From Bacteroidetes bacterium 43-93 (lineage in GTDB: Bacteria > Bacteroidota > Bacteroidia > Chitinophagales > Chitinophagaceae): 64,000 nucleotides of DNA. Positions within the stretch are counted from its first letter, which is position 1; each line of letters begins with the position of its first letter. Positions 7,583 through 15,548 of the stretch are shown here, piece by piece. Below the pieces are notes generated by a model. The model ran no database searches and had not been told where the DNA came from. It saw nothing but the letters and a program-made list of their open reading frames with translations. The position numbers and the translations under genes are program-made. The DNA lies in assembly GCA_001897855.1 (NCBI GenBank), contig MKUO01000011.1:1-64000 (forward strand), given 5' to 3'.

Positions 7583-8803
7583 CTATTTATTGCTCATGAT
7601 CTTCTTAGCTTCGATGCTAAGAGTGGCATGTGGTACGGCACGCAGGCGAGCTTTATCTATCAGCTTACCGGTAACGCGGCATATACCATAAGTTTTGTTT
7701 TCGATACGGATCAGCGCTTTTTCCAGGTGGTTGATGAACTGGATCTGGCGGCTGGCGAGCTGCGCTAATTGTTCGCGCTCCATAGCACCACTGCCGTCTT
7801 CCATATTCATGTAGCGGTTTTCGGTATCTTCCGTACCTGCTTCATCTTTGCGGGTAATAAGCCCCTGCAGGTATACTAATTCTTTTCGTGCGCTTTCTAA
7901 GCGGCCTTGTATAAGGTCTTTAAATTCGTTGAGTTCTTCGTCACTATAACGGTACACTGGTCCTTGCATTTGTTCAGGTTCATCTAATATGGAACGCGTA
8001 AATTCCGGTTGGTAATTGATCATTGTTTTGCCGGCATCGTCTTTCGATTTGGCTTTGTTTTCCAAACGACGGTGGGCTACTATCACCTGTGGTTTCTTCT
8101 CTGCACCACGTACAGGTGTAGCCTGCTTGGTGGGCCCTGCCACAGATGCTGTTGCCGCAGATGCAGATGATGGCCTTGAAGGCAAGGCACCTTTTGCAAA
8201 TGTGGTAACGGTTTTAGTAATATGCGTTTTTGCTCCGCCCGACTTTTTAGCCGCTGGTTTTGCAGCTACCGGTGCCGGCTTTACAGGCTCTGCCTTTTTA
8301 GGAGCAGGTGCCGGTGCAGGTACCGGCTTGGGAGCTGGTGCTGCTTTCTTTACCGGTTCTGCTTTTTTAGCTGCCGCTTTAGGAGCGGGTGCCGGTTTAG
8401 CTGCCGCTTTTTTAGCAGGTGCCGCCTTAGGGGCAGGTGCTGCTTTTTTAGCCGCCGCTTTTGGGGCAGGTGTCGCTTTTTTTGTACTTGATACGGTCTT
8501 TTTCAATGAGTTAGCTTTTTTCGAGTCCACTTTTTTAGTGGCTGTCACCTTCTTGGCCGGGGCTGCAACCTTTTTAACAGGTTTTGCCTGGGCGGCCTTC
8601 TTAGCAACAACCTTTTTAGCAGGAGCCGCTTTTTTAGCGGGCGCTGCTTTCTTGATATTCTTTTGAGGCGTTGCCTTCTTCACGTTCTTATTCTTCCCGG
8701 CCACAGATTTGCTGGCAGCTGGCTTTGCTGCTGTCTTTTTTGCGTTTTTTGCAGGCGCTGTAGTTTTCTTTACTGGCTTGGCTGCCGCTTTTTTAGTGGC
8801 CAT
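7583..8803 (-). CDS. TraR/DksA-type protein with long Lys/Ala/Pro-rich N-terminal tail
   Basis: Residues 1 to about 210 of this 406-aa protein are an almost pure Lys/Ala/Pro tract made of KKAAPAKK-like repeats, as in histone-H1-like and AlgP tails. Residues about 270-406 are a DksA/TraR-type coiled coil plus finger. The finger is degenerate: only one Cys (Cys375, in GICRVTGKLI) and His392 remain of the usual four-Cys zinc site, as is common in Bacteroidota members. DksA-family proteins bind the RNA polymerase secondary channel, and the tail would be expected to bind nucleic acid. It follows ileS by 7 bp and shares its terminator. I infer a nucleoid- or polymerase-associated regulator. Confidence 0.85.
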   Translation of the reverse strand: MATKKAAAKPVKKTTAPAKNAKKTAAKPAASKSVAGKNKNVKKATPQKNIKKAAPAKKAAPAKKVVAKKAAQAKPVKKVAAPAKKVTATKKVDSKKANSLKKTVSSTKKATPAPKAAAKKAAPAPKAAPAKKAAAKPAPAPKAAAKKAEPVKKAAPAPKPVPAPAPAPKKAEPVKPAPVAAKPAAKKSGGAKTHITKTVTTFAKGALPSRPSSASAATASVAGPTKQATPVRGAEKKPQVIVAHRRLENKAKSKDDAGKTMINYQPEFTRSILDEPEQMQGPVYRYSDEELNEFKDLIQGRLESARKELVYLQGLITRKDEAGTEDTENRYMNMEDGSGAMEREQLAQLASRQIQFINHLEKALIRIENKTYGICRVTGKLIDKARLRAVPHATLSIEAKKIMSNK

Positions 8804-12307: not shown

Positions 12308-12484
12308 ATGAAAAGGCTTTTCTACCTCGTTGTATCTATTGCCATCACCCTGGTGCTCATGGCCACATTTTTAAAGCCCTGGAAACGGCAGCTTACCACC
12401 GCAGCCATTATATTATTACTTATAAGCATGGGTATGTATTTTATATACCTGCTGCGGAACGGCAAACGTATTGATCGCAGTTAA
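12308..12484 (+). CDS. Small two-helix membrane protein (58 aa)
   Basis: This short frame begins MKRLFYLVVS and has two hydrophobic stretches (about residues 4-20 and 30-47) joined by the basic turn KPWKRQ, with a basic end GKRIDRS. The start ATG follows AAGATTAAG. A hexamer hairpin array begins about 6 bp behind its stop, as behind two other genes nearby, which supports it as a real gene. No family is recognised. Confidence 0.6.
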   Translation: MKRLFYLVVSIAITLVLMATFLKPWKRQLTTAAIILLLISMGMYFIYLLRNGKRIDRS

Positions 12485-12489
12485 GGAAG

Positions 12490-12776
12490 TGTTCAATAGT
12501 GTTCAACTGTTCAACATGTTCAACCAATTGAACATTTGAACACTGTGTTTACTCTGTTCACGGTGTTCACGATGTTCATCTTGTTTACGGTGTGAACATG
12601 AACAGAACTGTTCCGGGGTGTTCCAGTGTTCCAGGTGTTCCATGGTTGGAACGGTGGAACGGTTGGAACACTTTCCAGACTTTTCATCTTTCCAGGCTGG
12701 AAAATTGGAAAATGGATATTCTGTTTCACGTGTTTCATCTGTTTCATTAGTTTCGGGGTGAAACAGAGAAACAAGA
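12490..12776. repeat. Hexamer hairpin array, copy 1 (blocks A-B-C-D-E)
   Basis: Five consecutive blocks each hold several copies of one hexamer and then several copies of its reverse complement, spaced 1-4 nt apart. A: GTTCAA x4 then TTGAAC x2 (12491-12541). B: GTTCAC and variants, then GTGAAC/ATGAAC (12547-12606). C: GTTCCA-type x4 then TGGAAC x3 (12608-12671). D: TTTCCA then TGGAAA (12671-12713). E: GTTTCA-type x4 then TGAAAC/AGAAAC (12720-12775). Each block can fold as a hairpin in several registers. The array starts about 6 nt after the stop at 12484. Confidence 0.9.
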
Positions 12777-12862
12777 TGGTCTCACAAAACATGTAAACCT
12801 ATTCTTCCAATCATTTCACAACTTTCTTTCGGGTTCAAGTTCTGAAGTGTTAGCTTAGAGCA

Positions 12863-13603
12863 ATGTCCTACCGATCCAAACACATGCAAACTGGTTCTGT
12901 TTCTGTAAAGGATGCAATCAATGAAGGTCTTAAATCAGCTAAAAGACCCTTATATAGCATACCTATCCTACCTACGATCGTGTGTATTGTACTAATATAC
13001 TATACACACTCATTTGTATACTTATTACTTATTCCATTTAGCATAACATTATCTGTTTTCTATTCAAAAAAGGCTACCAACAAATGGAGGCTCTGGGCAT
13101 ACAGATATGTCAACGATATTCACCAATTGCAACGCTCAGCGGAATATGCAGGTTTACTACCTTATCAATCTTACAATAAACCAAACGCTTTGGCCACACA
13201 TACTGAAAAAGAAGAACTGAAGGAGTTACAGAAAAGATTTGAGGAGGCTGAAGGTTTCATTGATGATAAAACCATCCCGTCAGAAACAGTAATCACTCCA
13301 GGAGCTGATTTTACTAAGCAATTCCCAAAGGTTACATTGACCCAATCCGGAATTTTGCTTTATCCCGGCAAGCTGATACCATGGGATCATGTATATAACG
13401 AACGCATACCTTCTATAACCTATTTATACGCCTCAGCACGTACTGGTGGCTATAATAATTCTTCCTCTGAGCGGGTATTCAGATTCAATACAGATGACAA
13501 TTATTATGAATTTCAATTAGGGAGTCTTACTACTACGGTATGGATGCTTGATTTACTACTATATACTTACAGAGGGCGTTTCACAACCAAACAGTCTATG
13601 TAA
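12863..13603 (+). CDS. Two-helix membrane protein, YcxB-like C-terminus
   Basis: This 246-aa protein has a basic N-terminus, a paired hydrophobic segment (about residues 35-69), a charged helical linker and a C-terminal beta-rich region. That region carries TLTQSGILLYPGKLIPWDHV and an aromatic FRFNTDDNYYEFQLG. The two-helix plus soluble-domain layout and the PWDHV-type motif recall the YcxB-like family, but only weakly. It lies between hexamer arrays 1 and 2, so it is transcriptionally isolated. The function is unknown. Confidence 0.65.
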   Translation: MSYRSKHMQTGSVSVKDAINEGLKSAKRPLYSIPILPTIVCIVLIYYTHSFVYLLLIPFSITLSVFYSKKATNKWRLWAYRYVNDIHQLQRSAEYAGLLPYQSYNKPNALATHTEKEELKELQKRFEEAEGFIDDKTIPSETVITPGADFTKQFPKVTLTQSGILLYPGKLIPWDHVYNERIPSITYLYASARTGGYNNSSSERVFRFNTDDNYYEFQLGSLTTTVWMLDLLLYTYRGRFTTKQSM

Positions 13604-13837
13604 TTTTCCATTTTCCATTTTCCAGGCTGGAAAACGTGGAAAATCCTGTTTCATCTGTTTCACCATGAAACCATGAAACAGATGAAACCTGTGAAACACT
13701 ACTTTTAATATGTTCTGTTCACGTGTTCACTCTGTAAACACCATGAACATCGTGAACAAAGTGAACAGGGTAAACAACAGTGTTCAACTGTTCAATCGGT
13801 GGAACATATTGAACACTTGAACACCATTGAACACTTC
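13604..13837. repeat. Hexamer hairpin array, copy 2 (blocks D-E-B-A)
   Basis: The array starts at the base after the stop codon. D: TTTCCA x3 then TGGAAA x2. E: GTTTCA x2 then TGAAAC x4. B: GTTCAC x2 then ATGAAC and GTGAAC x2, flanked by GTAAAC variants. A: GTTCAA x2 then TTGAAC x3. Block C is missing except for a lone TGGAAC at 13799. The segments between blocks (such as ATATGTTCTGTTCACGT) are shared with copy 3. Confidence 0.9.
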
Positions 13838-13881
13838 CCTTTCTTTCTACGATATAAATATATTATCTTGATACATCTATC

Positions 13882-15168
13882 ATGATTAAAAAGCTGGCAT
13901 TACCATTATTACTTTGTTTCCAATTTGGAGTAGCTTACTCACAGTCGGCACATAATTCTGTATCAGATTATGATTATTACACTTTTGCTGACAGGGAACC
14001 AATTTACAGGGATGAGTTTAACGACACCAGCAAGAATAATAAAGAGTGGCTAAATACCAACGATACCTATTTCCTAATTAATATCTCGAATGGCTGTCTT
14101 GTTATCACAAATAACGGAACGGATTACACAGCATCAGACTATACACTTAAGTTTGAATATCTGAGAGATTTTGAACTGGAGATATCGGCTAAGGTAGAAA
14201 GTCCTAAACGCAGAGACAGGAGTGGCATCCTGTTTTGGGGTCGAGACTCAAGCATATCTAAATATAATGGGCAATTTTTATATTTCAGTCATGGGAAACA
14301 TATCCTATTCAACCAAACCGGAGCAGAAACAGAAAACTATAGATTACCCCTACCCGACTTTACATTCAATGACAAAAAAGACTTTAATATTTATACTATA
14401 AGAAAGGTGGATAATGACTATTATCTATTTATCAATCATATATTATATAAAAAATACCCTTACTTCCCGTTAAACGGACAGCTAATAGGACTGGGAGCAT
14501 CTTCTAACGGTTCAACAGCATATTACGACTATATACATATTGATTATCTCAACAGGCATGAACTGAATAATCCTACAGCAGAATTTAAAGCTGGCACCAT
14601 AGGTTTGAAAACTTTTTTAAATGACCGTTTAAGCTTTACACTTGGCGCAGCATATGAATGTATGAGAGGCAGATTCCTGGTGCGGTATCGTGTAGATATT
14701 ACCGGCAAAGTTGATAGCATTATATCGTTGAGTGCATATGATATACTGAACCAGCAAACAGTAAAAGCATTGAATGAAACCGGTAATGGCTGGATACCCG
14801 CACACCACAAAGGCACACCTATGGCCTCGTGGAATAAGATGATAGTTGAATTCAGGCTCAATAGTAAAGGCAATTGTCCCCAACCGGTTTATTATTATGA
14901 CTTGGCAATGAAGTATTACAAAGAAGATAATATACCAATGTCAATTGAGAACTTCAAAACGTCTATAGGCGAAGATTTTGCAGATATCAAATCACTATAC
15001 AACCTATCTATGATATACATCAATCAGCAGCAATATGACAGTGCAGCCATCTACCTGAACAGAATAAACGAATTGAGGTCGATACCGGAATTGGATATCA
15101 AACAGGTAAATGAACAAATTGCCAAGACAGATGCAGATATGTATATTAAACAGTATTGCAAGCAGTAA
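13882..15168 (+). CDS. Exported LamG-like / TonB_C-like / TPR fusion protein
   Basis: This 428-aa protein has a signal peptide (cleavage near AYSQ). Residues about 40-225 look like a concanavalin-type (LamG/DUF1080-like) jelly roll with YRDEFNDTS, SGILFWGRD and YDYIHIDYL. Residues about 260-325 resemble the TonB C-terminal domain (YRVDITGKVDSI, GNGWIPAHHKGTPM, MIVEFRL). Residues about 333-400 contain TPR-like helices (YYDLAMKYYKEDNIPMSIENF). The combination suggests a periplasmic or surface scaffold that binds a carbohydrate or protein ligand. Exact families are inferred by eye. It is flanked by hexamer arrays 2 and 3. Confidence 0.7.
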   Translation: MIKKLALPLLLCFQFGVAYSQSAHNSVSDYDYYTFADREPIYRDEFNDTSKNNKEWLNTNDTYFLINISNGCLVITNNGTDYTASDYTLKFEYLRDFELEISAKVESPKRRDRSGILFWGRDSSISKYNGQFLYFSHGKHILFNQTGAETENYRLPLPDFTFNDKKDFNIYTIRKVDNDYYLFINHILYKKYPYFPLNGQLIGLGASSNGSTAYYDYIHIDYLNRHELNNPTAEFKAGTIGLKTFLNDRLSFTLGAAYECMRGRFLVRYRVDITGKVDSIISLSAYDILNQQTVKALNETGNGWIPAHHKGTPMASWNKMIVEFRLNSKGNCPQPVYYYDLAMKYYKEDNIPMSIENFKTSIGEDFADIKSLYNLSMIYINQQQYDSAAIYLNRINELRSIPELDIKQVNEQIAKTDADMYIKQYCKQ

Positions 15169-15458
15169 TTTCCAATTTTCCATTTTTCCATTTTCCAGGC
15201 TGGAAACGTGGAAAATCCTGTTTCATCTGTTTCACCATGAAACAATGAAACACGTGAAACACTACTTCTGATATGTTCTGTTCACGTTCACACTATGAAC
15301 ATCGTGAACAAGATGAACAGGGTAAACAAGAGTGTTCAACTGTTCAATTTGTTGAACACCTTGAACACTTGAACACCATTGAACACCTCTACTGTTCCAA
15401 CCGTTCCACCGTTCCAACCATGGAACACATGGAACACATGGAACACTTTGGAACACCC
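15169..15458. repeat. Hexamer hairpin array, copy 3 (blocks D-E-B-A-C)
   Basis: The array begins directly at the stop codon of the preceding gene. D: TTTCCA x4 then TGGAAA x2. E: GTTTCA x2 then TGAAAC x3. B: GTTCAC x2 then ATGAAC/GTGAAC. A: GTTCAA x2 then TTGAAC x4. C: GTTCCA x3 then TGGAAC x4. The order matches copy 2 with block C added at the end, and differs from copy 1. Confidence 0.9.
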
Positions 15459-15548
15459 TGCTTTTTGGTATATATTTTGTTGTAACCTCACAAAACCCGC
15501 CTACCCTGTTTATCATGACATAATATTTCAATACTTTCACAGCACTCT

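Follow-up and report, generated by a model that had tools for sequence, protein, structure and literature searches.

Helicase/primase initiator modules that have a DNA-binding domain and short repeats near the rep genes are represented by P4 alpha with its ori and by SGI1 rep with its oriV. P4 alpha has, besides its Toprim primase and helicase, a domain for binding to repeats at ori (PMC4234260), and in SGI1 oriV is located immediately downstream of rep (PMC7433901). The hairpins described here, whose arms are made of short repeated words, are organised in a similar manner, but helicase and primase are two different proteins, the words are 5-7 nt long with a spacing of ~9 nt, a single hairpin is made from the two orientations, and the word varies from element to element with the helix of the helicase HTH. 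Also in contrast to P4 and SGI1, the arrays of the window under study stand without the module, and an origin function at the home site of these hairpins is putative. In pRN1, a stem-loop next to the replication genes is conserved in structure but not in sequence, and there are no iterons (PMC4234260). Both its location by replication genes and the conservation of structure over sequence are shared with the present hairpins, in which, however, the two arms consist of repeated words. Precedents for the initiator-site role proposed below are the pRN1 stem-loop origin and the SGI1 oriV next to rep.

The mobilizable transposon Tn4555 and its relatives from Bacteroides carry the same helicase (AAA) and DUF6371 genes as the elements considered here, together with a GTCCC word-hairpin. 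Unlike them, the arrays of the genus place cargo between paired hairpins, and at most chromosomal sites the module has been lost. REP/BIME sequences with their RAYT, as well as MITEs, are likewise intergenic palindromes, sometimes in inverted pairs. The present arrays differ from them because a fixed head tetranucleotide and a high copy number are lacking, no transposase was seen, and words are repeated within each arm and are private to each locus. Finally, integron attC cassettes are also swappable genes with a folded terminal site, but here the sites are inverted instead of direct, the arms consist of repeated words, and no integron integrase was noticed nearby. In the literature searched on such arrays, on DUF6371 and on the origin of Tn4555, no description was found.

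The three arrays of the window

The window is the whole stretch of DNA that was analysed, 64 kb of contig C11 of genome G000 (3.99 Mb). Its arrays and the genes around them are listed below, with the copies of each word given before the plus sign and those of its reverse complement after it.

12308..12484, + strand: 58-aa ORF, read from the sequence, with its stop codon 6 nt before array 1
12486..12776, no strand: array 1, blocks A B C D E, inverted with respect to arrays 2 and 3
12490..12544: array 1 block A, GTTCAA 4+2, inverted copy of 13777-13838 (90%)
12546..12608: array 1 block B, TGTTCA(C) 3+2; its 24-nt string TGTTCACGGTGTTCACGATGTTCA is also found in a helicase-linked hairpin (L475)
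12609..12671: array 1 block C, GTTCCA 3+3, inverted copy of 15393-15437 (98%)
12672..12716: array 1 block D, TTTCCA 2+2
12722..12773: array 1 block E, TGTTTCA 3+2, with the word core of the hairpin beside the L480 helicase
12863..13603, + strand: geneX, 246 aa, no Pfam match
13604..13836, no strand: array 2, blocks D E B A, directly 3' of the geneX stop codon
13882..15168, + strand: geneY, 428 aa, weak TPR and TonB_C matches
15167..15459, no strand: array 3, blocks D E B A C, directly 3' of the geneY stop codon

The first-pass annotation had described five word families and their reverse complements in three arrays, and this anatomy was recovered: 300 bp of arrays 1, 2 and 3 contain 23, 22 and 27 exact words, respectively, whereas no more than 7 occur in any of 50 shuffled versions of the window. 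Block B of array 3 departs from its statement that each block holds two to four copies in each direction, as the exact words there are only 2+1. A detector that requires at least 2 copies of a hexamer followed by at least 2 of its reverse complement within 75 bp returned 13 blocks in the window, all of them inside the three arrays, versus none in shuffled windows, and none in ~288 kb of other G000 sequence. The multi-family, hairpin-capable design that had been proposed is real: for every block, folding surpasses that of its dinucleotide shuffles by 2 to 6 SD. The words are spaced 8.5 ± 0.85 nt apart.

Other features go beyond that annotation, namely the inversion of array 1, the adjacency to stop codons, the exchange of cargo and the helicase/primase home. 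Arrays 2 and 3 are direct copies with 85-90% identity, while array 1 is an inverted copy of both. All three start 0-6 nt 3' of a stop codon, array 1 at 6 nt from that of the 58-aa ORF and the other two at ~1 nt from those of geneX and geneY. DNA matches to the arrays in G000 are limited to this locus, and a search with a TGTTCR-hairpin pattern adds a second one, an inverted TGTTCG/TGCCCA pair at C17:112.9-113.5 kb.

An assembly artefact is ruled out by the sister genome G014, which was assembled independently and contains array 1, a geneY orthologue and array 3 at the same site. Both geneX and array 2 are missing from that locus, indicating that they were gained or lost as a unit. Neither geneX nor geneY is a recognisable defence gene. 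The idea that the cargo is the ancestral partner of the arrays was discarded, as the geneX homologues found at other places in the genus (37-45% identity) and a geneY homologue of G005 (33% identical), which adjoins ileS, are free of arrays. At the ileS-upstream site that corresponds to that of the window, G004 carries a hairpin, an OLD-like gene, two more hairpins and a helicase gene; no helicase or primase gene is present inside the 64-kb window. Next to ileS, positions 7583-8803 of the window encode a protein of 406 aa in which a long repeat region is rich in lysine, alanine and proline and the C-terminal part looks DksA/TraR-like by eye.

Home site of the word-hairpins and the helix-to-word code

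The home of the word-hairpins is the gap between the DnaB-like helicase and Toprim primase (DUF6371) genes of Bacteroidota mobilizable elements, including Tn4555, which has a GTCCC word-hairpin at the junction of its helicase (AAA) and DUF6371 genes. The hairpin is located within the helicase gene or immediately behind it. At three loci (L334, L057 and L059), cargo is flanked by the helicase gene (AAA_25) and the DUF6371 gene, and at two others (L050 and L116) it lies after the helicase gene, while in other families (L364 and L366) a single cargo-free hairpin separates the helicase and DUF6371 genes. Among ten plasmid, Tn4555 and gut-contig loci, a detector block precedes DUF6371 directly in eight; the remaining two (L377 and L379) show by eye a weaker TTGTCG hairpin. 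In viral contigs, in which a single DUF6371 query gave no match and an alignment query recovered the loci, a block lies at most 300 bp upstream of the DUF6371 relative in 15 of 72 loci, versus 0.75 expected, and the gene order is integrase, small HTH gene, helicase, hairpin and DUF6371. Word spacing at home (8.9 nt) is close to that of the window. At four loci (L378:4657-4960, L383:1485-1724, L405 and L406), two GTCCC hairpins surround an ORF of ~30 codons between the helicase and primase genes, the first of them lying within the helicase reading frame, at its 3' end.

DUF6371 contains a zinc ribbon and a Toprim motif, and its structure, predicted with moderate confidence, matches the DnaG and T7 gp4 primases. 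The helicase consists of a DnaB/RecA core and a C-terminal HTH, and its model matches DnaB and T7 gp4. A word-hairpin adjoins 28 of the 30 helicase matches collected by profile, the two exceptions being truncated or without the HTH. As is characteristic of iteron-type origins, repeats are found near initiator genes at home (15/72 viral loci and 28/30 helicases), but not at the window arrays, since no helicase is encoded within the window.

The word varies together with seven residues of the recognition helix of the HTH. Helices of the types S[LV]GxVN or SVATVN occur with GTTCA, SVS[ST]VN with GTTCG, KSTV[ANS]R with GTCCC, SH[MQ]xx[SK]R with GTAAC, EGAVRK with CGTAC, and SFSTVKR with TTTCA. Given the identity of the helicase body, helix identity correlates with word identity with a partial r of 0.65 (reached in 0 of 5000 permutations), while the best of 93 other helicase segments gives 0.23. 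In leave-one-out prediction by nearest neighbour, the helix recovers the word in 20.8 of 23 cases, compared with 12 of 23 for the body. Five loci read after the pattern had been noticed (L468, L469, L472, L475 and L117) all fit the code. The helicases of L116 and L334 share 72% identity, but the word (GTCCC) and the helix (KSTV) of L116 are those of Tn4555, a distant element.

The simplest reading of this covariation is that the C-terminal HTH of the helicase most likely reads the word, so that an initiator would recognise the repeat, as far as sequence covariation can indirectly indicate. The words are thus most likely iteron-like sites of the element helicase, and probably origin sites. Among the roles guessed at in the first-pass annotation, a multi-site protein platform comes nearest to this evidence. 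It is proposed that, at home, the HTH would bind the words as iterons, the helicase would load at the hairpin on the unpaired loop or strand, and the DUF6371 primase would prime, starting the replication of the excised or transferred element. The code would link replicative helicases to their DNA sites in a readable way across a large group of Bacteroidota mobile elements, including a resistance transposon (Tn4555), and offers a candidate origin for elements whose replication start has no description in the literature searched.

Within the window, the GTTCA core of helicase-linked hairpins is found in families A and B, and the TTTCA core in family E. No cognate helicase was found for the words of families C (GTTCCA) and D (TTTCCA), and pattern scans of viral contigs with families A, C, D and E gave no cognate helicase among the matches listed, which were mostly unrelated contigs. 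Several intergenic GTTCAA-type word-hairpins per contig were observed in phage-like IMG/VR contigs (L893, L900, L916 and L927) without the helicase described here, indicating that the word-hairpin is not exclusive to it. These hairpins are possibly an independent use of the same design.

Paired arrays and exchanged cargo in the genus

As the first-pass annotation had suggested looking for in relatives, the arrays recur: the TGTTCR-hairpin pattern is present in 12 of 15 genomes of the genus, including the C17 locus of G000, while the reversed-pattern control gave 0 in all of them. Copies per genome are few, and a family-wide search with one array terminus, in which two candidates were scored per genome, retrieved two members of the genus only. 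In 787 kb of contigs from three species, picked for carrying arrays, there are five block clusters, each with blocks on either side of cargo. Among pairs of homologous blocks separated by more than 300 bp, 32 are inverted and 12 direct, and among those less than 300 bp apart none is inverted and five are direct, these pairs being non-independent; at three loci of the genus, cargo is flanked by direct pairs only.

The cargo between the same arrays changes from genome to genome. At the FdhD-MobA site, unrelated genes are found in four sister species, G009 (203 aa), G006 (ApeA), G002 (428 aa) and G012 (TonB_C), and at the PhoH site there is a HEPN-like gene in G006 and a 145-aa membrane protein in both G009 and G002. 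Among cargo chosen for its defence-like look, the confirmed defence genes are bSEFIR, OLD/Gabija-like ATPases, SIR2, ThsA-like SIR2, ApeA, GmrSD and FRG. About half of all cargo, including geneX and geneY, has no recognised function. Defence genes are frequent among the cargo, and word-hairpins offer a sequence signature for a class of cargo sites with anti-phage genes in Chitinophagaceae, so that such islands may be found by their hairpins alone.

Taking together the shared word cores and spacing, the 24-nt string and the helicase at the ileS site of G004, the arrays of the window are best read as orphan copies of helicase sites. We consider it probable that they are orphan multi-word hairpins of the helicase/primase-site kind, framing geneX and geneY. 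According to this model, hairpin copies in the genus would have left the helicase/primase home and settled at chromosomal hot spots, where pairs of them, nested and usually inverted, frame single accessory genes and the cargo in between is exchanged; in the window, three multi-word arrays would remain as an orphan site with no helicase or primase left. Several observations count against it: the lack of a helicase or primase in the window and of a cognate for GTTCCA and TTTCCA, the fact that geneX and geneY are not recognisable defence genes, the GTTCAA hairpins of phage-like contigs without the helicase, and the three loci with direct pairs only.

An unlikely alternative is that the pairs mark the ends of cargo cassettes, as inverted terminal arrays for recombination or transposition that an enzyme cuts or exchanges in trans, and have no role in replication. 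The excess of inverted over direct pairs and the different cargo at one site speak in its favour, as do an identical 42-bp block at non-orthologous loci of two species and the fact that arrays of five loci from three species fall into a single alignment register once both ends point at the cargo. Inverted repeats at the ends of cargo are indeed what a MITE or IS would show, but no transposase is found among the cargo, no transposase or recombinase was seen in any pair, and no clean empty site with a target duplication was identified. In addition, the few copies per genome do not resemble a family of dispersed ends, a single helicase-primase hairpin requires no end function, and the word follows the helicase and not a recombinase. 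Plain transposon ends were considered unlikely, given the few copies and with no transposase or clean empty site seen, and REP/BIME were rejected for the absence of many dispersed copies, with only two loci in G000. The earlier view that the arrays lie outside REP, BIME, CRISPR, ERIC and MITE is supported, in the sense that this is not an ordinary MITE.

It has also been considered, as a quite unlikely function, that the orphan arrays are multi-specificity origin-site decoys that would bind or misdirect the helicases of incoming mobile elements, as well as docking arms for the exchange of defence cassettes. Words of several element families would stand side by side for this purpose, turning iteron-type incompatibility into defence.

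Conservation and pairing of the words

Between G000 and G014, the words are 97% identical, the spacers 81-82% and geneY 77% (nucleotide), a comparison in which words were defined from one sequence and are somewhat favoured. Gaps are far commoner in spacers than in words, and the copy number of the words differs between orthologous arrays. Paralogous blocks with the words TGTTCA, TGTTCG, TGCTCA, TGTCCA and TGCCCA share a common loop and spacers, and their word copies change jointly. In an alignment whose rows were selected for forming blocks, which favours pairing, 98% of the arm cells are paired, and double-sided changes number 35, versus at most 5 in slid-arm controls.

These compensatory changes, the strong predicted RNA folds and the array starts right behind stop codons would be consistent with RNA elements, that is, post-stop hairpins that stabilise transcripts, tune the translation of the next gene or end transcription. 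Such a role is nevertheless very unlikely as the explanation of the arrays. On the transcript strand, wobble-type departures do not exceed A-C-type departures (10 vs 10, a small sample), giving no support to action at the RNA level, including the transcript stabilisation suggested in the first-pass annotation. Termination, suggested there as well, is disfavoured by the count of intrinsic terminator-like sites in the region (0) and by the T-runs at hairpin ends (13/218, 6%, versus 4% in the control). Moreover, array 1 is inverted with respect to the other two despite the co-directional genes, an RNA hairpin would not explain the link to the recognition helix of the helicase, and a known RNA family was discarded, as Rfam gave one sub-threshold match only (E 0.18, 17.9 bits vs 65 required). 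Within the operon at home, an RNA role is conceivable, since the hairpin lies within or right behind the helicase gene.

Least probable of all are function-free selfish or neutral palindromes arising by hairpin-templated slippage, for although the variable copy number between orthologous arrays and the REP-like repeats gathered at the same sites speak in their favour, and slippage, as proposed earlier, explains the changes in copy number, the retention of words over spacers and neighbouring coding sequence, the fixed spacing, the absence of blocks in ~288 kb elsewhere in G000 and the link between word and helix speak against this reading. The interpretation as orphan helicase sites is preferred.

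Other palindromes were observed in the course of the analysis. REP-like palindromes of the CGTCATTGCGAGGAACGAAGCAATC type and of a second type, read as LNLIQHL, gather together at word-hairpin sites (L049, L052 at the FdhD-MobA site, and L332:7000-7540). Hairpins with other words were seen in Niastella (GGCAGA, L220:14627-14689) and in Flavisolibacter and Longitalea (ATTAGC, L228 and L235). In another family (L356-L360, from G423 and G445), single TGTTCACGG-type hairpins occupy several intergenic places, one of them adjoining Vsr-like endonuclease and HTH genes and another a KilA-N-like gene.
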